A DNA stretch of 43,680 nucleotides from Myxococcales bacterium (GTDB taxonomy: Bacteria; Myxococcota_A; Polyangia; Haliangiales; Haliangiaceae). This document shows positions 35,506-43,085 of the stretch, piece after piece (position 1 is the stretch's first letter; each line of letters opens with the position of its first letter). The stretch spans positions 1 through 43,680 of the forward strand of contig SXJR01000164.1 of the NCBI GenBank assembly GCA_005779305.1, given 5' to 3'. The notes under the pieces were generated by a model that was not told the DNA's origin, searched no databases, and saw only the letters and a list, made by a program, of their open reading frames with translations. The translations under genes were made by a program, and so were the position numbers.

Positions 35506-37401
35506 TCACGGATCGAGATGGAGCGAGACCTGCGTGCCGGTTGTTGCCGCGCGGTCCCGCGGTTGGTGGCGCTGTACCAGGGCCACCAGGTCGTCGCCGA
35601 AGCGCGCGATCTTGGCCGGACCCAGGCCGGGGATGCGGGCCAGCGCGTCCTTGGTGAGTGGGCGCATCGCGTCGATCGCGCTGATCACGCGCTGCTGGAA
35701 CACCATGTACGCCTTCCACTTCAGCGCGCGCGCCATCTTCTTGCGGTAGCGATCGAGCTCACGCGCGACCTCGCTGCCGCCGCCGCCCACACGCTGCCGG
35801 CGCGGCCGCCCGGTCGTCACCGCCGTCGCGTCGGAGCCGGCGCTGGCCTGGGGCTCGCGCAGTGGCCGGCCGGCCAGCCACACCGTCGGATACTTCTGGC
35901 CGCGCCGCACCAGGCGCCGCTCGCGGATGAGGGCGTCGATGGTGGCGATCACCGTCGCCTCGCTGGCGTGCTGGAGCAGGCCGTACTCGGGGAGTTGCAT
36001 GAGCTCGCCCTCGGCGACCGCCTTGGCCCGGCTGCCGCGCAGCGCCAGCGCCAGGTTGCCGCGCCCCACCGGCCGGCGCAGGCGCGCGACCGCGTCGAGG
36101 ATGAGCTGTCGACCGTCGAGACCGAGCGGCTCGACCGCGGGTCGAGCCCGCACGTCCTCGACGCCATCGAGGGCAGCCGTCGCGCCCGTACACGCGTCGC
36201 AGCGCTCGCACGCCGCGTGCTCGCTCGAGCCGGTGAAGTGCTCGCACAGCATCACCTGCCGGCAGCGCGACGACGCCCTCGCGTACTTCTCGATCGCGGC
36301 CAGCGCCTGCTCGGTGCGGCCGCTCGCGTTGCCCGAGCCCTGCTGCAGCTTGCGCTGGGTCATCAGATCGCCGGCGCCGAACAGCATCAGGCACGTGGCC
36401 GGCTCGCCGTCGCGGCCGGCGCGCCCGGCCTCCTGGTAGTAGGCCTCGAGGCTGCCGGGGGTCTGGAAGTGGACGATGACGCGGACGTCGCCCTGATCGA
36501 TGCCCATGCCGAAGGCGTTGGTCGCGACCAGCACGCGGGCGCGGCCGGCCGCGAAGGCGTCGTGCGCGCGCTCGCGGGCCAGGGCGGTGCGGCCGGCGTG
36601 GTAGTGCTGGGCCGGGAAGCCGGCTGACTTGAGCGCGTCGGCCACCCGCTCGGTCTTCTTGCGGGTGCTGCAGTAGATGATGGCGCGGCCGGCGCCGGCG
36701 CGCGATCGCAGGCCGGCGGCCTCGCAGGCGGCGAGCACCGCGTCGATGCGCGCGCCGTCGCTTCCGAGGTGACGGACCTCGAAGCGCAGGTTGGGGCGCT
36801 TGAAGTCGCCGCGCACGATGACCGGCGTCCGCAGCCGCAACGACGCCACGATCTCGTCCATCACCCGCGGCGTCGCGGTCGCGGTCAGCGCGATCACCGG
36901 CGCGTCGACCACCCCGCGCAGCTCGTGCAGGCGCAGGTACTCGGGGCGGAAGTCGTGACCCCACTGGCTCAGGCAGTGAGCCTCGTCGATCGCCAGGAGG
37001 GCGATCGGCACGCGGGCGAGCATGCGGTGGAAGCTGGCCATCGCCGCCCGCTCGGGCGACACGTAGAGCAGCGCCAGTTCACCGGCCAAGAACTGCGCGA
37101 CCACCTGGCGTTGATCGTCCTCGTCCTGGTGGCTGTGGATCGCCGCGGCTGCCACGCCGCGCCCGGTCAGGGCGTCGACCTGATCGTTCATGAGCGCGAT
37201 CAGCGGCGACACCACGATGGTGGTGCCGCGCCCGGCCTGGAACGCGGCGACCGCCGGCACCTGGTAGCACAGCGACTTGCCGGCGCCGGTGGGCAGGAGC
37301 ACTGCCGCATCGCGACCCGCCATCACCGCCGCGACCGCGTCGCCCTGGCCAGGCCGGAAGCCGTCATGCCCGAACACCGTGCGCAGGACACCCTCGATCA
37401 C
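35506..37401 (-). CDS. recQ: ATP-dependent DNA helicase RecQ
   Basis: A 631-aa RecQ helicase acting in recombination and fork repair. The helicase core has FRPGQGDAVAAVMAGRD, Walker A PTGAGKS, VVSPLIALMNDQV, DEAHCLSQWGHDFRPEY, ALTATATP, IIYCSTRKKTE and the QEAGRAGRDG motif VI. The RecQ-C-terminal zinc site has Cys in SRCRQVMLCEHF and CERCDAC. A C-terminal HRDC domain is present (WKAYMVFQQRVISAIDAMRPLTKDAL..IPGLGPAKIARFG, in pieces). The GTG at 37401 begins MIEGVLRTVFG, the canonical start. A short charged tail follows the HRDC domain. Confidence 0.94.
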   Translation of the reverse strand: MIEGVLRTVFGHDGFRPGQGDAVAAVMAGRDAAVLLPTGAGKSLCYQVPAVAAFQAGRGTTIVVSPLIALMNDQVDALTGRGVAAAAIHSHQDEDDQRQVVAQFLAGELALLYVSPERAAMASFHRMLARVPIALLAIDEAHCLSQWGHDFRPEYLRLHELRGVVDAPVIALTATATPRVMDEIVASLRLRTPVIVRGDFKRPNLRFEVRHLGSDGARIDAVLAACEAAGLRSRAGAGRAIIYCSTRKKTERVADALKSAGFPAQHYHAGRTALARERAHDAFAAGRARVLVATNAFGMGIDQGDVRVIVHFQTPGSLEAYYQEAGRAGRDGEPATCLMLFGAGDLMTQRKLQQGSGNASGRTEQALAAIEKYARASSRCRQVMLCEHFTGSSEHAACERCDACTGATAALDGVEDVRARPAVEPLGLDGRQLILDAVARLRRPVGRGNLALALRGSRAKAVAEGELMQLPEYGLLQHASEATVIATIDALIRERRLVRRGQKYPTVWLAGRPLREPQASAGSDATAVTTGRPRRQRVGGGGSEVARELDRYRKKMARALKWKAYMVFQQRVISAIDAMRPLTKDALARIPGLGPAKIARFGDDLVALVQRHQPRDRAATTGTQVSLHLDP

Positions 37402-37430
37402 ACAGCCTCGCTACCACGTCACCCCGACAG

Positions 37431-37625
37431 TCAGGACCGGCCGCGGATCGCCAGGGCCACGCCGCCGGTGATGGCGGCAGCGGCGACGAGCAGGCGCACC
37501 GAGGCCGGCTCGTCGAGGAGGAGCAGCCCGGCAGCGGCGGCGAGCAGTGGCACCAGGGCGCGCAGCGCCAGTCGGCGCAGGACACTGTTGGCCGCGAATC
37601 CCAGGAGCGCCGCGCCCGTCAGCAT
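37431..37625 (-). pseudogene. EamA/DMT transporter remnant with internal deletion
   Basis: A 64-codon frame joins the typical start of an EamA transporter (MLTGAALLGFAANSVLRRLAL) directly to its final helices (RALVPLLAAAAGLLLLD, EPASVRLLVAAAAITGGVALAI). About 200 or more residues of the ten-helix family protein are missing between LAL and RAL with the frame preserved. With only about two or three helices it is unlikely to transport. It lies between recQ and the coiled-coil gene. Confidence 0.7.
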
Positions 37626-37659
37626 GACCACCCGCGTGGACCTGGACGTGCGCTCGCCC

Positions 37660-38502
37660 TCAGCCGCCTTCGCCGTCGTGCTCGCCCAGCGCCGCCACCG
37701 CATTCGCGACCCGGTGCTCGGCGTCGGCCAGTGCGCGCGACGCCTCGCCGACCCGCGCGCGGGCGCGCTCGAGCGCGGTCTCGGCGACCTGCACCTCGGC
37801 CACGGCGTTGGCGAGCTCGGCGGTGCGTTGCACCACCGCGCGGCGCATGCCATCGACGGCGCGCTCGAGCAGCGCGCGCTCGGCGGCGCGGACCCGCGCT
37901 CGCGTCGCCCGCTCTCGCTCCTCCTTCTCGCGCTCGGCCTTCTCGGCCTGCTCGAGGGCGGAGCGATCGGTCCTGGGTCGGCGCGCCGCGAGCTCGTCGA
38001 CCGGCGGCGGGCTCTTCGGCGTCGCCGGCGCCGGCTCGAGCGGCACGCCCAGCATCACCTCGAAGCCGGGCGGATCGCGATCCTCGACCAGGCGTCCGGG
38101 CGGGTCCGGATCCCAACCCAGCGCCGACAGTGCGTGGAGCGTGGTGGCGACCCGCTGGATCGTGCCGGGGCTGGCCGCGTGATCGTCGCTGGCCAGCACC
38201 GCCGCCGCCCGGGTCCGGAGTTGGGCCAGCACCGCCCGCTGCTCGGCCAGGCCGTCGCGGTCACCGTCGCGGACCCGGGCCCCGGCCGCGAGCAGGGCGT
38301 CCATCTCGCCGCGGGCGACGCGCCAGAGCTGGTTGACCACCCAGGCGCTCATGCTCGGCCGCGGCAGCTTGGCGAATCCGGTCGCAGATGCCTTGGATCC
38401 CGCGGCTTTGAGCGCGTCGGCCAGGCGCTTGCGCTCGGCCGTGAACGCCGACAGCGGCGCCCCGTAGAGCGCCTCGGCGGCCTCGTCGACTGGATCGCTC
38501 AC
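37660..38502 (-). CDS. Coiled-coil protein of unknown function
   Basis: A 280-aa cytoplasmic protein. Residues 1-90 are a compact helical region (DEAAEALYGAPLSAFTAERK, RPSMSAWVVNQLWRVARGEM) of a type seen in actinobacterial and other conserved hypothetical proteins. The central part is Pro-rich. About 180-275 is a long Arg/Glu/Ala-rich heptad region, likely coiled coil (EQAEKAEREKEERERATRAR). Function unknown. The GTG at 38502 is favoured: a GACAAT box lies 8 nt upstream. Confidence 0.72.
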   Translation of the reverse strand: MSDPVDEAAEALYGAPLSAFTAERKRLADALKAAGSKASATGFAKLPRPSMSAWVVNQLWRVARGEMDALLAAGARVRDGDRDGLAEQRAVLAQLRTRAAAVLASDDHAASPGTIQRVATTLHALSALGWDPDPPGRLVEDRDPPGFEVMLGVPLEPAPATPKSPPPVDELAARRPRTDRSALEQAEKAEREKEERERATRARVRAAERALLERAVDGMRRAVVQRTAELANAVAEVQVAETALERARARVGEASRALADAEHRVANAVAALGEHDGEGG

Positions 38503-38519
38503 GCCCGTGTATTGTCCGC

Positions 38520-38565
38520 GTTCCGGACATGTTCGGGGAGGCCTTGAGTACGCCTCAACCGGAAC
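38520..38565. repeat. Nested inverted repeats in the divergent region upstream of the ilv leader
   Basis: GTTCCGG (38520-38526) pairs with CCGGAAC (38559-38565). Inside, GAGGC (38538-38542) pairs with GCCTC (38552-38556) and TTGAG with CTCAA. It may be a regulator-binding site for the divergent promoters or a hairpin; no T-tract. Confidence 0.45.
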
Positions 38566-38613
38566 GGTCAATGACTTCACTGCGTGTTGAACGCTGGTGA
38601 CGTGTATTTTTGA

Positions 38614-38643
38614 TTGACACAGTGCGTCTCGACTCCGTACGCT
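38614..38643 (+). promoter_or_regulatory. Predicted promoter of the ilv operon
   Basis: TTGACA (38614-38619) is a perfect -35; TACGCT (38638-38643) at 18 bp is a plausible -10. Initiation would fall close to the GTG/ATG (38651/38654) of the leader, making it leaderless or nearly so. An alternative is TTGAAC (38587-38592) with TTTGAT (38609-38614), which would leave a 5' UTR of about 30 nt. Confidence 0.5.
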
Positions 38644-38653
38644 TCAGGTCGTG

Positions 38654-38794
38654 ATGGTGGACTCCTCCTTCAACGCCCTCGTCGAGGTCCTTGATGGAGA
38701 GGTTCGCCCCGTCGTCGGCATCGCTGGCGTCGTCGGCATCGACCTGATCATTGAGGTCCTGCTGATTGCGACCCGGTGCGGGCCGCCGACCTGA
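38654..38794 (+). CDS. ilvL: ilv operon leader peptide (attenuator-controlling)
   Basis: A 46-codon frame between the predicted promoter and the attenuator terminator. It has 9 Val, 5 Leu and 5 Ile (19 of 46); 14 of the 22 residues from 17 to 38 are branched-chain, in runs such as [13 protein letters not shown] and [10 protein letters not shown]. In this GC-rich DNA it uses otherwise uncommon codons ATT (twice), CTT and GTT. The ATG at 38654 has AGG 7-9 nt upstream; GTG at 38651 is an in-frame alternative. Ribosome stalling when charged Val/Ile/Leu tRNA is scarce would free the antiterminator. The stop (38792-38794) lies just after antiterminator strand 2. Its own product is probably not functional. 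Confidence 0.85.
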
Positions 38795-38832
38795 TTCGGA
38801 ACTGACCGAAACAGAGATTGGCCCCCGCACCG
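38774..38832 (+). promoter_or_regulatory. ilv antiterminator pairing (strands 2 and 3)
   Basis: CGGTGCGGG (38774-38782, inside the leader-peptide frame) is exactly complementary to CCCGCACCG (38824-38832). The latter includes part of the terminator's 5' arm, so the two structures are mutually exclusive. Confidence 0.75.
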
Positions 38833-38858
38833 AACCGGTCGCGGGGGCTTCTTCGTTT
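38821..38858 (+). terminator. ilv attenuator terminator
   Basis: The stem GCCCCCGC-ACCG (38821-38832), loop AAC, then CGGT, one unpaired C and GCGGGGGC (38841-38848): 12 base pairs with one bulge. It is followed by TTCTTCGTTT. It lies 28 bp upstream of the ilvD ATG and would stop transcription when the leader is translated without stalling. Confidence 0.85.
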
Positions 38859-38885
38859 CAGCCCCACGAAAGTCCACCACCACTC

Positions 38886-40568
38886 ATGCCCGACCCGACT
38901 CGACGCCCTCGCCGTTCCGATGCCCTGGTGCGCGACGCCTCGCGCGCACCGGCCCGCGCGATGTTGAAGGCGACGGGCCTCGACGATGCCGCGCTCGAGC
39001 GGCCGCTGGTCGCGGTGGTCAACACCTGGACCGAGGTCATGCCGTGCAACCTGCACCTGCGCGCGCTGGCCGATGACGTGAAGCGCGGCGTGCGCGCCGC
39101 CGGCGGTACGCCGATCGAGTGGAACACGATCTCGGTCTCCGACGGCGTCACCATGGGCACCGAGGGCATGCGCGCGAGCCTCATCTCGCGCGAGCTCATC
39201 TGCGACTCGATCGAGCTGGTCTGTCTCGGCCACCTCGTCGACGCGGTGGTGTGTCTGGTCGGCTGCGACAAGACCTTGCCGGCGGCGGCGATGGCGCTGG
39301 CCCGCCTCGACATCCCCGGGCTCGTGCTCTACGGCGGACCGATCGCGCCCGGCCGCTTCCAGGGTCGCGACGTGACCATCCAGGACGTGTTCGAGGGCGT
39401 CGGCGCCCACGCCGCCGGCAAGATGACGCTGGCCGACCTGCGCACGCTCGAGGACCAGGCCTGTCCCGGGGCCGGCGCCTGCGGCGGTCAGTTCACCGCC
39501 ACCACCATGGCGACCGCGCTCACCGTGATGGGGCTCGGGCCGATGGGCATGGGCGAGATCCCCGCGCTCGCGCCCGAGCGCAAGGAGGCCGCGGCCACGG
39601 CCGGCAAGCTGGTGATGCAGCTCCTCGCCACCGGCACCAGCGCGCGGGCGTTCATCACCCGCGCATCGATCGAGAACGCGATCACGGCGGTGGCCGCCAC
39701 CGGCGGCTCCACCCCCGCGGTGCTGCACTTGCTCGCCATCGCGCGCGAGGCTGGCGTGCCGCTCGACATCGACGACTTCGATCGCCTGGCCGCGCGCACA
39801 CCGACCATCGCCGACCTCAAGCCGGGCGGCCGCTTCACCGCCGTCGACCTGCATCACGCCGGTGGGCTCGCCGTCCTGTGTCAGCGCCTGTTCACGGCCG
39901 GCCTGCTCGTCGACACGCCCACGGTGAGCGGGCTCAGCCTGCGCGCCGAGGCCGACGCCGCGCGCGAGACGCCGGGCCAGGAAGTCATCACCTCGCTCGA
40001 GAAGCCCAAGGCGGCGACCGGCGGGCTCGCCATCCTGCGCGGCAACCTCGCGCCCGAGGGCTGCGTGATCAAGCTCTCGGGGCACAGCCGCACCCGCCAC
40101 GAAGGCCCGGCCCGGGTCTTCGACAGCGAGGAGCAGGCGTTCGCGGCCGTGCAGGCCGGCGACATCAAGGCCGGCGACGTCGTGGTCATCCGCTTCGAGG
40201 GACCCGCGGGTGGGCCGGGGATGCGCGAGATGCTGGCGGTGACCGCGGCGCTGGTCGGGCAGGGCCTGGCCAGCGAGGTGGCGCTGTTGACCGATGGGCG
40301 GTTCTCGGGCGCCACGGTCGGCTTCATGATCGGCCACGTCGCACCGGAGGCGGCGCTGGGTGGACCCATCGCGCGCGTGCGCGAGGGCGACCGTGTCGTC
40401 ATCGACGTGGCGACGCGACGGCTCGATGTCGAGGGTGGGCTCGACGGGCGAGCGGATGCGCCGTCGCCGCGACCGCGGCCGCGGGGAGTGCTCGGCAAGT
40501 ACGCCGCCACGGTGGCTTCGGCCGCCGAGGGCGCGATCACCAATCGTGCAGATGGGGGTGAAGCGTGA
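38886..40568 (+). CDS. ilvD: Dihydroxy-acid dehydratase
   Basis: A 560-aa Fe-S dehydratase, converting 2,3-dihydroxy-isovalerate or -methylvalerate to the 2-keto acids, third common step of Val/Ile synthesis. Conserved blocks are [54 protein letters not shown] and the Fe-S Cys in [17 protein letters not shown]. The C-terminal half has [17 protein letters not shown] and [19 protein letters not shown]. The ATG at 38886 ([14 protein letters not shown]) is the natural start, downstream of the attenuator; an in-frame ATG at 38766 would lie inside the leader. The stop overlaps the ilvB GTG (GTGA). Confidence 0.95.
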
Positions 40569-42433
40569 GCGTCATGGCAGAGGCAGAGGCAGAAGGGACG
40601 TCCACGTCCACGTCCACGTCCACGTCGCCGTCAACGACCACGACCACGACCACGACCACGAGTCCGGAGAGGGTGGCGGGGAAGCGGACGGGGGCGGAGA
40701 TCATGTGGGAGGTGCTCGAGCAGATGGGCGTCGAGGTGGTGTTCGGTTATCCCGGCGGCGCGATCATGCCGGCCTACGACGCGTTGCCGAAGTACCGCGT
40801 GAAGCACGTGCTGGTGCGGCACGAGCAGGGCGCGGCCCACATGGCCGATGGATACGCGCGGGCGTCGGGTCGGGTCGGGGTCGCGGTCGCGACCAGCGGC
40901 CCGGGCGCGACCAACCTGGTCACGGGCATCGCCACCGCGATGCTCGACAGCGTGCCGTGCGTGTTCATCACCGGCCAGGTGTCGTCGCACCTCATCGGCA
41001 GTGACGCGTTCCAGGAGACCGACGTCACCGGCGTGACCTTGCCCATCACCAAGCACAACTGGCTGGTCACGCGCGCCCAGGACATCGGTCCCGTGCTGCG
41101 CGAGGCCTTCCACGTCGCCCTGAGTGGCCGGCCCGGGCCGGTGCTGGTCGACATCACCAAGGATGCGCAGCAGGGCTCGTGCGACTTCGATCCCGCCGAT
41201 CGCCGGCTGGCTCGGCCGGCTCGCCAGCGTCCGGTCCGCGCCACGGCCCAGGATCGCGAGGACGCGTTCGAACGCGCCGCGCGGCTCATCGATCACGCCG
41301 AGCGTCCGTTGATCCTGGCCGGCCACGGCATCGTCCAGGCCGGCGCCGCCGCCGAGCTCCTCGCCTTCGTCGAGCGCACCGGTGCCCCGGTGGCGTCGAC
41401 GCTGCTCGGGCTCGGCGGGTTCCCAGCCACCCACCCGCGCGCCCTCGGCATGATGGGCATGCACGGCGAGGCCTGGGTCAACCGCGCGGTGCAGGAGGCC
41501 GACCTGCTGATCGCGCTGGGCATGCGCTTCGACGATCGCGTCACCGGCAACCTCAAGACCTACGCGCCGCGTGCGCGCAAGATCCACGTGGACCTCGACT
41601 CGTCCGAGATCGGCAAGAACGTCGCGGTCGACGTCGCCATCGTCGACGACGTCAAGCGCGTGCTGGGCGAGCTCACGCCGCGCTGCAAGCGCCTCGACCG
41701 CACGGCGTGGATCGCCCGCATCGAGGCCGAGAAGGGCGACGCCGCGGTGCGCGACATCCAGGCCTTGCCCGACACCGGCAAGCTCCACGCCGCGCACGTC
41801 ATTCACGATCTGTGGCGGCTCACCGAGGGCAAGGCGGTGGTCGTCACCGACGTCGGCCAGCACCAGAGGTGGGTGGCGCAGTACTACACGCACGACCACG
41901 CCCGGGGCCTGGTGACCCGCGGGGGCCTCGGCACCATGGGCTTCGCGCTGCCGGCGGCGATCGGCGCTCGCTTCGCGCGGCCCGGCGACGAGGTCTGGGT
42001 GGTCGCCGGCGACGGTGGTTTCCAGATGACGGCCTGCGAGCTGTCCACCTGCGCCCAGGAGGGCATCAAGGTGAACGTCGCCATCATCAACAACGGCTAC
42101 CTCGGCATGGTCCGTCAGTGGCAGGAGATGTTCTACGGCGGTCGCTACGTGGCGACGCCGATGCGCTCGCCCGACTTCGTCAAGCTGGCCGAGGCCCACG
42201 GACTCACCGGTATGCGGGTCACGAAGCGAGCCGAGCTCGCCGCCGTGGTCGAGGCCGCGCGCCGCGAGCCCGGCACCGTGGTGATCGACTTCCGCGTCGA
42301 GCAGGAGGACTCGGTCTATCCGATGGTGCCGTCGGGCGCCGACCTCGGCGACATGATCCGCCGCCCCCACGCGCCACCCTCAGCGCTGGTCGAGACCGCC
42401 GCTGACACCGAGGAAGACGAGGTGCCCCGATGA
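40565..42433 (+). CDS. ilvB: Acetolactate synthase, large (catalytic) subunit
   Basis: A 622-aa ThDP enzyme making acetolactate or acetohydroxybutyrate. The catalytic Glu is in [16 protein letters not shown]. Other signatures are [33 protein letters not shown], the FAD-region [12 protein letters not shown], and the ThDP site [27 protein letters not shown]. The first 35 residues precede the family domain (which begins near [12 protein letters not shown]) and are low-complexity: AEAEAE, a TS repeat and a T run, encoded by hexanucleotide repeats. The GTG at 40565 overlaps ilvD by 4 nt; ATG at 40574 is an alternative. The stop overlaps the ATG of a small frame (ATGA). Confidence 0.95.
40576..40657 (+). 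repeat. Three consecutive hexanucleotide repeat tracts in the ilvB 5' end
   Basis: GGCAGA x3 (40576-40593), ACGTCC x4 plus a degenerate unit (40598-40627), and ACGACC x4 plus a partial unit (40634-40663). Each unit is two codons, so copy-number change keeps the frame and alters only the length of the N-terminal extension. Confidence 0.85.
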
Positions 42434-42540
42434 GCGAGCGAGTCTGCGAGCGAGCGACCTCCGTACCGGCCGAGACGGCGTTCCTCGCCGAACGAGGCCG
42501 ATCGACACGGCCCGTCCGGCGTCAGACGGAGGGGCCATGA
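42430..42540 (+). CDS. 36-codon frame bridging ilvB and ilvN with ATGA overlaps at both ends
   Basis: The ATG (42430-42432) overlaps the ilvB stop and the TGA (42538-42540) overlaps the ilvN ATG. The product would be Arg/Glu-rich ([20 protein letters not shown], then charged) with no recognised domain. It may exist to keep ribosomes coupled across the 103-bp gap. Chance is possible, since GC-rich DNA often lacks stops. Confidence 0.4.
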   Translation: MSERVCERATSVPAETAFLAERGRSTRPVRRQTEGP

Positions 42541-43085
42541 GCCCGCCCGCTGCTGCTCCGCCCCGTCCGCGCCTGCGCACGTTCGTCGCCACCGTCGAGG
42601 ACGTGCCCGGCGTGCTCAACCGGGTCGCGTCGCTGTTCCGGCGCCGCGGCTACAACATCGCGTCGCTGACGGTCGGTCAGTCCGAGCTGCCCGGCTTGTC
42701 GCGGCTGACCATCGTGGTCGCCTGCGACGACGCCACCGCGCTTCGCCTCGAGGCCAACCTGTGGAAGCTGGTCGATCTGGTCGAGGTCCACGAGCTCGAC
42801 GCCCACCAGGCCATCGAGCGCGACCTCGCCCTCATCAAGGTGCGTGCCGATCTCGGGTCGCGCGCCCAGGTCGTGCAGGCCGCCGAGCTGTTCAACGCCC
42901 GCGTCATCGACGTGGCTCCCGACGAGCTGGTGCTCGAGATCACCGCGACCCGCGACCGCGTCGACGATCTGCGTCGCGTGCTCGAACCGTTCGGCGTGAT
43001 CTCGCTGGTGCGCACCGGCGCCGTCGCCATGCCGCGCGCCGGCGTCGCCGACCCCACCCTTTCTGCCAAACCCGCTGCGAGCTGA
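42537..43085 (+). CDS. ilvN: Acetolactate synthase, small (regulatory) subunit
   Basis: A 182-aa regulatory partner of IlvB that confers valine feedback inhibition. The N-terminal ACT domain reads FVATVEDVPGVLNRVASLFRRRGYNIASLTVG, followed by LSRLTIVVACDD and the link KLVDLVEVHELDA. The C-terminal ALS_ss domain has LALIKVRADLGSRAQVVQAAELFNARVIDVAPDELVLEITATRD. Length is typical. The ATG at 42537 has a strong GGAGGGG site. The last 20 residues (AGVADPTLSAKPAAS region) are a variable tail. ilvC follows after 13 bp. Confidence 0.95.
   Translation: MSPPAAAPPRPRLRTFVATVEDVPGVLNRVASLFRRRGYNIASLTVGQSELPGLSRLTIVVACDDATALRLEANLWKLVDLVEVHELDAHQAIERDLALIKVRADLGSRAQVVQAAELFNARVIDVAPDELVLEITATRDRVDDLRRVLEPFGVISLVRTGAVAMPRAGVADPTLSAKPAAS

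Follow-up and report, generated by a model that had tools for sequence, protein, structure and literature searches.

A probable ribosome-mediated attenuator ahead of ilvDBNC in a Myxococcales bacterium, and its likenesses in other phyla

Can the short leader that precedes a branched-chain amino acid operon in a Myxococcales bacterium gauge the supply of valine, isoleucine and leucine (Val/Ile/Leu), and decide codon by codon whether the genes beyond it are transcribed? The leader in question lies ahead of ilvDBNC in contig SXJR01000164.1 (NCBI GenBank assembly GCA_005779305.1), of which positions 1 to 43,680, called the window in what follows, were analysed, and an earlier note made from the letters alone had proposed just this kind of control. 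We think that the answer is very probably yes, and that this leader is a ribosome-mediated transcription attenuator of ilvDBNC. The case is carried by the parts themselves, by their conservation in relatives, by covariation of the helices, by a pronounced codon bias, by the position of a promoter-like site and by the gene context.

The leader and its two alternative folds

What are the parts? A promoter-like site (Table 1 holds the coordinates of all features) ends 7 nucleotides (nt) before an in-frame GTG, an alternative start at 38651, and 10 nt before the ATG of a 46-codon frame in which 19 residues are Val, Ile or Leu. These are densest just ahead of an RNA arm near the end of the frame, and it is the codons at 38738-38767 that are likely to have the control role. 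Leader codons 41-43 contain this arm, the 5' side of an antiterminator (segment 2), in which CGGTGCGGG at 38774-38782 pairs perfectly with CCCGCACCG at 38824-38832 to give 9 base pairs (bp). The partner lies within segment 3, which also forms the 5' side of a terminator of 12 pairs, made by GCCCCCGC (38821-38828) with GCGGGGGC (38841-38848) and by ACCG (38829-38832) with CGGT (38836-38839), with a loop of 3 nt and with the C at 38840 bulged out. A T-rich tail, TTCTTCGTTT, follows, and the ilvD ATG at 38886 comes after a gap of 27 bases. Because both structures use bases 38824-38832, antiterminator and terminator are mutually exclusive.

The promoter and the frame with its 19 branched-chain residues, as the earlier note had described them, are there base by base, and the two helices with common bases that it had drawn are borne out by the letters and by local folding (antiterminator region -36.0 kcal/mol, terminator -25.3 kcal/mol). 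It had also asked for a fold of 38640-38870, and this proves to be strong (z = -4.84 against 200 shuffles). In addition, a small hairpin can form in the antiterminator loop, and both of its sides are altered in the relative L007 (TCCGG/CCGGA), a change noticed by eye and in the genus only.

The spacing of these parts can be set against the usual footprint of a ribosome. From segment 2 to the stop codon is a distance of 18 nt, and from the final control codon, ATT, to segment 2 one of 9 nt, both counted from first base to first base. A ribosome that stalls at CTG CTG or earlier would leave segment 2 free or nearly free, whereas one halted on that ATT would overlap the beginning of the arm. With no ribosome present, folding predicts that segment 2 pairs with upstream bases (mean probability 0.70 here and 0.00-0.99 across loci, figures that come without a shuffle control), and such pairing would favour termination.

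How might all of this work in the cell? Translation of the leader, stalling of the ribosome, termination and the amino acids sensed are what we infer from this arrangement, and the cycle would run as follows. RNA polymerase would start within a few bases of the ATG of the leader and so make an almost leaderless mRNA, onto which a ribosome would load. With valyl-, isoleucyl- and leucyl-tRNAs plentiful, the ribosome would reach the stop codon at 38792 and cover segment 2 (38774-38782), whereupon segment 3 would pair with segment 4 and transcription would end near 38855. With one such tRNA scarce, the ribosome would stall in the Val/Ile/Leu run at 38738-38767, and segment 2, left free, would pair with segment 3 before segment 4 had been made, so that no terminator would form and ilvD, ilvB, ilvN and ilvC would be transcribed. 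Rare U-ending codons at the control positions, chiefly ATT, probably sharpen the sensitivity of the stall.

Conservation, pairing and codon choice in relatives

Do relatives carry the same leader? The earlier note had expected leader and stems to be conserved, and this expectation has held up well. Of seven genomes searched in the genus, six have an ilvD match, G006 being the exception, and each of the six carries leader frame, antiterminator and terminator (two were read via their named copies L032 and L033). An IlvD search of 56 genomes gave a match in 26, including 16 of the 34 high-quality ones, a patchiness that may reflect loss of branched-chain synthesis and would fit predatory myxobacteria. 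Among the 16 genomes whose IlvD is at least 63% identical, own genome included, the leader was found in 14, either by a scan for a Val/Ile/Leu-rich frame or, within the genus, by reading by eye. Eighty loci of named public genomes yielded a leader in 16 (by frame scan, sequence reading and the genus loci), and the titles of the leader-bearing records run from Myxococcales, Kofleriaceae, delta proteobacterium, Deltaproteobacteria and Polyangiaceae to Holophagae, Acidobacteria, Planctomycetota, Candidatus Obscuribacterales and Candidatus Melainabacteria. The frame scan shows no leader in the remaining named loci, one of which, L039, later gave a weak signal by RNA model (L181).

We curated 34 loci, all of them picked for having a leader, in which it stands ahead of ilvD, ilvB, leuA or ilvC-ilvB in records named for several phyla. 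Distant leader peptides differ in their letters, and what is retained is the Val/Ile/Leu run before the antiterminator arm, which recurs across the 34 loci, the arm itself at the end of the frame, and the terminator.

The promoter-like site also recurs. With a criterion of at least five of six matches to TTGACA, a -10 that has A and T where they matter most and any in-frame start, such a site ends 6-13 nt before the start in 22 of the 34 loci, where resampled upstream sequence leads one to expect 0.42 (the 6-13 nt range was chosen after a first inspection of the loci); in L037 the site lies 37 nt upstream. The usual step from promoter to transcription start is 7 nt, and because the promoter ends 6-13 nt before the start, the leader mRNA is probably almost leaderless, with hardly any 5' untranslated region; at our locus the transcript would start a few nt from the leader start codon. 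By eye, the -35 region of many leaders has TTGAC-R-C-N3-GCG in common, with a partly inverted repeat, GACGC-N3-GCGTC (38614-38634 here). A recurrent TTGACRCNNNGCG box at -35 was considered as an operator and dropped, as its copies in the genome number 35 versus 40 for a reversed control.

Do the arms fit their own partners better than those of strangers? In every one of the 34 curated loci the sequence beyond the leader folds into a GC-rich terminator-like hairpin. When the last 42 leader bases are paired with the first terminator arm, at most 10 of 200 shuffles do as well as the real duplex in 29 of these loci. RNAalifold on a MAFFT alignment reports little covariation (term -0.35); in many loci, however, the helix shifts in length by one pair on both arms, which column-wise counting misses, and we therefore used duplex tests of cognate against non-cognate arms in its place. 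These covered 33 loci, with the near-duplicate L033 removed, the terminator arms of L122 assigned by hand and shared ancestry still in the statistic, and not one of 20,000 arm-exchange permutations reached the observed mean pairing energy, for segments 2:3 and 3:4 alike. Mean duplex energies are -21.65 (cognate) and -19.30 (non-cognate) for 2:3, and -24.38 and -20.24 for 3:4, where a foreign segment 3 beats the cognate one in 10% on average. The clearest case of covariation is L123, whose segments 2 (TTCGCGGGG), 3 (CCCCGCGAA) and 4 (GGTTCCGGGG) are all altered together.

Are the codons themselves out of the ordinary? Codon-level tuning by ATT, CTT and GTT had been suspected at this one locus, and these codons, together with GTA, are indeed enriched in leaders beyond it. 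ATT makes up 81 of 128 Ile codons in leaders versus 83 of 813 in the downstream genes of the same loci, against a locus-weighted expectation of 13.3 (standard deviation 3.1); CTT makes up 21% of leader Leu codons (6% downstream), and GTT plus GTA 28% of leader Val codons (9% downstream). Codons ending in A or T, compared after removing the last eight leader codons, account for 175 of 524 Val/Ile/Leu codons in leaders versus 339 of 3901 downstream (33% versus 9%), and for 188 of 800 versus 2025 of 12858 among other residues (24% versus 16%). Expressed as odds ratios, the excess is 11.9 for Ile, 4.2 for Val and 4.0 for Leu, beside 2.6 for Ala, 2.9 for Phe (from few codons) and at most 2.4 for the remaining residues; the synonymous bias is thus greatest for the amino acids that the leader would sense. 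A single tRNA usually reads both ATC and ATT, which makes slow decoding a likelier ground for the preference for ATT than a tRNA pool of its own.

Might the frame nevertheless be incidental, with a riboswitch, a T-box or an RNA-binding protein working the leader? T-boxes and other RNA sensors control such genes in other bacteria, and a fold as strong as this one (z = -4.84) would suit them. Yet none of the 4227 models of Rfam release 15 gives a match over its cut-off in the whole window, and a relaxed search round the leader returns weak matches only, the best being CrfA, which scores 23.7 bits where its cut-off is 38 (E = 0.023). Moreover, conservation sits in codon content, frame end and terminator, and the choice of ATT for ATC, with the synonymous bias on Val, Ile and Leu, is hard to explain without translation. 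We consider a sensor of this kind highly improbable.

A different possibility is that the terminator merely sets a constant basal level, and that the peptide or a short RNA acts mainly elsewhere, like peTrpL of Sinorhizobium meliloti. Trans-acting leader peptides are known (PMC7298713; here and below, statements from sources with PMC numbers refer to the portions of those texts available to us), and Gly-Pro-Pro (GPP) falls within the last six residues of 19 of the 34 leaders, with all four Pro codons in use; both points speak for this possibility. Beyond this end motif, however, distant peptides are by eye alike in composition and not in sequence, as one would want of a codon counter; GPP is absent from both leuA-type leaders, from four of the five ilvB-type and from some of the ilvD-type; and it falls in the RNA arm that is needed for pairing. 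Such an action in trans, as the main role, strikes us as improbable. GPP might also be a peptide-level pause signal: its third positions vary, yet many loci in the phylum of L046, whose records are titled Acidobacteria, read similar bases in another frame, and RNA pairing therefore explains the GPP end equally well.

The wider family and the genes around the leader

How far does the family extend? Two RNA models, R1 from 23 loci (with terminators assigned by motif) and R2 from all 34, were used in searches that ignore the downstream gene. R1 matched at E <= 0.01 in 53 of 377 genomes of the phylum, and among 30 loci listed from this search 16 were known already or have a Val/Ile/Leu-rich frame that ends rightly. 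Its new sites lie before ilvD (L121, L123, L135), before ilvB (L115, L124, L126, L127, L128), before leuA (L122, L131) and before an ilvC-ilvB pair (L118). R2 matched in 13 of the 48 genomes of named loci; among its 14 matches there, L183 and L187 lack a leader and L185 has one that ends GRCGPP, with no adjacent match to ilvD, ilvB, ilvN, ilvC, leuA or ilvA. In the L046 phylum R2 matched in 22 of 297 genomes, and the 30 loci examined there comprise 20 before ilvD, ilvB or ilvA, three before proC, one before asnB, one before a DAHP synthase, one orphan at a transposase-like frame and four that are unsupported (genes at L188, L193, L195, L209, L214 and L215 were named by family or similarity search, the others by the similarity of their first 70 residues). 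Those leaders before ilvA that were read are short, with chiefly Ile, for example MSHAGFALIPAAIAIIRSREGA. The own genome, which is 75% complete, has a single credible site, its second match reaching merely E = 3.07. At L190 an attenuator-like leader now stands before a transposase-like frame, and tblastn with six ilv/leu proteins found no match.

Several points weigh against reading the leader as an attenuator, beside the selection and the shared ancestry of the loci already mentioned. Here the -10 TACGCT has three of six consensus matches, the T tract is interrupted by C and G and the tail is weak in this genus, and a simple consensus scan for promoters and terminators misses both leader elements. 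Among relatives with an IlvD at least 63% identical, the leader was not found in L014 and L016, a Val/Leu-rich frame in the latter being rejected by eye; ten genomes have a more distant IlvD, nine of their loci were inspected, the ninth is cut at a contig end, and none of the eight judged has the leader. In the duplex comparisons L009, L010, L015, L096 and L124 are not clearly better than shuffles, a good segment 2 is missing at the usual place in L015, and on average 31% of foreign segments 2 pair better than the one that belongs to the locus. Finally, R1 is noisy at weak scores, with 14 of its 30 listed loci lacking a leader.

Is it conceivable, then, that a valine-rich frame in GC-rich DNA lies by chance next to an ordinary terminator? 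Spurious frames are many in such DNA (66 of at least 40 amino acids overlap the last 9.7 kilobases (kb)), and RNA-model matches of up to 41.5 bits occur without a leader (L119). Chance does not, however, account readily for a combination conserved in 34 loci, with covarying helices, codon bias and promoter position, nor does it give the terminator anything else to do. The nearest real-looking upstream frame, on the minus strand at 37660-38580, is 63-73% identical in four same-genus genomes, whereas the plus-strand frame at 36769-38547 that overlies it shows an identity of merely 43-49% in the genus and overlaps recQ, which runs on the opposite strand; a Pfam search found no family for either frame. 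Since the upstream frame that is conserved points away from ilvD, we see no other gene that the terminator would be likely to serve, and it most likely acts on the ilv operon alone. Conservation has largely refuted chance, and we give it next to no weight.

The attenuator reading also has the gene context on its side, the order 3' of the leader being ilvD-ilvB-ilvN-ilvC, with a 4-base overlap between the end of ilvD and the start of ilvB. Two scores beyond those in Table 1 fall short: ilvD reaches 612.1 bits against TIGR00110, slightly under its cut-off of 618.15, and the truncated ilvC frame 262.5 bits against NF004017, under its cut-off of 336.

Table 1. Features of the leader and of the operon that follows it, in window coordinates
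Feature	Position	Strand	Basis
Promoter-like site: -35 TTGACA 38614-38619, 18-nt spacer, -10 TACGCT 38638-38643	38614..38643	+	sequence
Leader peptide frame, 46 codons, ATG 38654, stop TGA 38792-38794	38654..38794	+	sequence; composition conserved in relatives above letters
Likely control codons ATC GAC CTG ATC ATT GAG GTC CTG CTG ATT	38738..38767	+	sequence
Segment 2, antiterminator 5' arm CGGTGCGGG, within leader codons 41-43	38774..38782	+	sequence, fold
Small hairpin TTCGG-AACTGA-CCGAA in antiterminator loop	38795..38810	+	fold; comparison by eye
Segment 3, common arm: antiterminator 3' arm 38824-38832 and terminator 5' arm 38821-38832	38821..38832	+	sequence, fold
Segment 4, terminator 3' arm CGGT-C-GCGGGGGC, single bulged C	38836..38848	+	sequence, fold
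T-rich tail TTCTTCGTTT	38849..38858	+	sequence; imperfect in genus, many other loci with longer T runs
ilvD, dihydroxy-acid dehydratase	38886..40568	+	NCBIfam NF002068, 725 bits versus cut-off 644; Pfam PF00920 and PF24877
ilvB, acetolactate synthase large subunit	40565..42433	+	TIGR00118, 706 bits versus cut-off 538
ilvN, acetolactate synthase small subunit	42537..43085	+	NF008864 and TIGR00119, both above cut-off
ilvC, ketol-acid reductoisomerase, truncated by contig end	43099..43680	+	PF07991, 209.6 bits

The searches also brought to light leaders that may serve other amino acids. In the L046 phylum, reading by eye shows that asnB genes in the family of genome G611 often have ahead of them a short frame rich in Asn codons and a hairpin that resembles a terminator. 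Upstream regions were read for 13 of the 20 asnB loci listed, and eight have a frame of at least three Asn at the right place (L224, L225, L227, L228 and L233-L236; that of L227, for example, is MTFLLSNANNNRPPRVNRAWDGEILA); L226, L230 and L237 have by eye a similar frame with two Asn, and L231 and L232 have none. We regard this leader as a candidate asparagine attenuator, and a literature search returned no title on an asnB attenuator of that kind. At L193 a DAHP synthase follows a leader, MGSASATASYYDCFSPSIRGCGPPA, with Tyr-Tyr...Phe and the ending RGCGPPA, and the same antiterminator/terminator core, as if the sensor codons alone had been exchanged; no leader like it appeared at the seven other DAHP-synthase loci scanned of 14. 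Lastly, proC follows a terminator of the same type at L209, L213 and L216 (named by NCBIfam in L209, by likeness in the others), and the L209 frame, with three Pro (MIRIPAIHPRPSTLRAGGSRTTG), is a possible proline attenuator.

Known attenuators and what this one may add

How new is any of this? Myxobacteria were formerly counted as Proteobacteria. The mechanism itself is textbook; what is new, as far as the open-access literature shows, is where the attenuator occurs and its near-leaderless form. The earlier note had thought its occurrence in a Myxococcota-like genome undescribed, and in the available portions of that literature we found no such attenuator reported for Myxococcota, Acidobacteriota or Planctomycetota, while Lopatovskaya 2010 or Vitreschak 2004 may hold deltaproteobacterial predictions. 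A 2010 survey left almost all of the attenuators it predicted in Acidobacteria without an associated function (PMC2965389), and a 2016 paper explained gene-proximal short leader frames in Acidobacteria and Planctomycetes by reinitiation (PMC4833913). A classical design found in Myxococcota, and also in genomes whose titles name Acidobacteria, Planctomycetota or Obscuribacterales, would make its known range wider. It would also furnish dozens of natural variants for following the evolution of sensor codons, of the near-leaderless translation start and of antiterminator letters, and it predicts how bacteria that are difficult to cultivate might regulate their branched-chain amino acid synthesis.

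A bolder idea, which we offer tentatively and would not ourselves bet on, is that a single old cassette, with letters near GGTGCGGG / CCCGCACC / GGTGCGGG, might be common to Myxococcota, Acidobacteriota, Planctomycetota, Obscuribacterales and enterobacteria, with sensor codons alone exchanged between operons, slow U-ending codons and a nearly leaderless mRNA. The order of such a cassette would be antiterminator arm at the frame end, stop codon, common arm and terminator, and its sensors would be Val/Ile/Leu (ilvD, ilvB, leuA), mostly Ile (ilvA), Tyr/Phe (one DAHP synthase) and Thr/Ile (thrL). If this were true, attenuation would be an ancient or mobile module, and not one that was repeatedly invented.

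Which known systems come closest? The Veillonella ilvD motif WRC-18-2 (PMC8632094) is, like ours, a structured RNA before ilvD, sometimes with a terminator, but it belongs to Firmicutes and is a weak riboswitch candidate with little covariation, unlike the leader here. The ilvB leaders of Actinobacteria (Seliverstov et al. 2005, PMC1262725) likewise combine short Ile/Val/Leu frames with terminators before ilv genes; their mode of regulation was called unclear, codon changes in Streptomyces coelicolor being without effect, and the available portion of that paper describes no ilvB antiterminator, in contrast to what we see. A further system is ilvBNC (ilvL) of Corynebacterium glutamicum, which has a leader peptide (MTIIRLVVVTARRLP), a terminator and an antiterminator, and whose transcription starts one base from the leader start codon (PMC11857589), which gives the near-leaderless layout a precedent. 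It differs in belonging to Actinobacteria, in its 15-residue peptide, in its three hairpins with an anti-antiterminator and in having ilvB first; the comparison with it is one of description.

The enterobacterial leaders stand close in letters too. E. coli ilvL, ahead of ilvGMEDA, also has a Val/Ile/Leu peptide, an antiterminator arm inside the frame and a terminator before the operon, and in the K-12 record its letters CCGTGCGGGG / ACCCCCGCACCGAAAGGTCCGGGGGT nearly equal CGGTGCGGG / GCCCCCGCACCGAACCGGTCGCGGGGGC here. Its frame, however, continues for about 12 codons past the Val/Ile run, whereas the frame here ends on the antiterminator arm; its leader has an untranslated 5' stretch, whereas here the promoter abuts the start codon; and the gene order differs, ilvD being first in the operon here, in a different phylum. 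The thrL frame of E. coli ends at the antiterminator arm, as ours does, although its terminator stem is shorter and its operon, for threonine, senses Thr and Ile. Over 89 kb of E. coli, R2, which was built without E. coli, places ilvL at the top with 33.9 bits and thrL next with 28.3, followed by ivbL (15.0), hisL (13.0) and pheL (11.3), with 13.4 bits for the best match outside the annotated attenuators; leuL and trpL are unmatched at E <= 10, the model's E-values being rough. On these scores, the antiterminator/terminator core of the myxobacterial leader resembles that of the enterobacterial ilv attenuator beyond chance.

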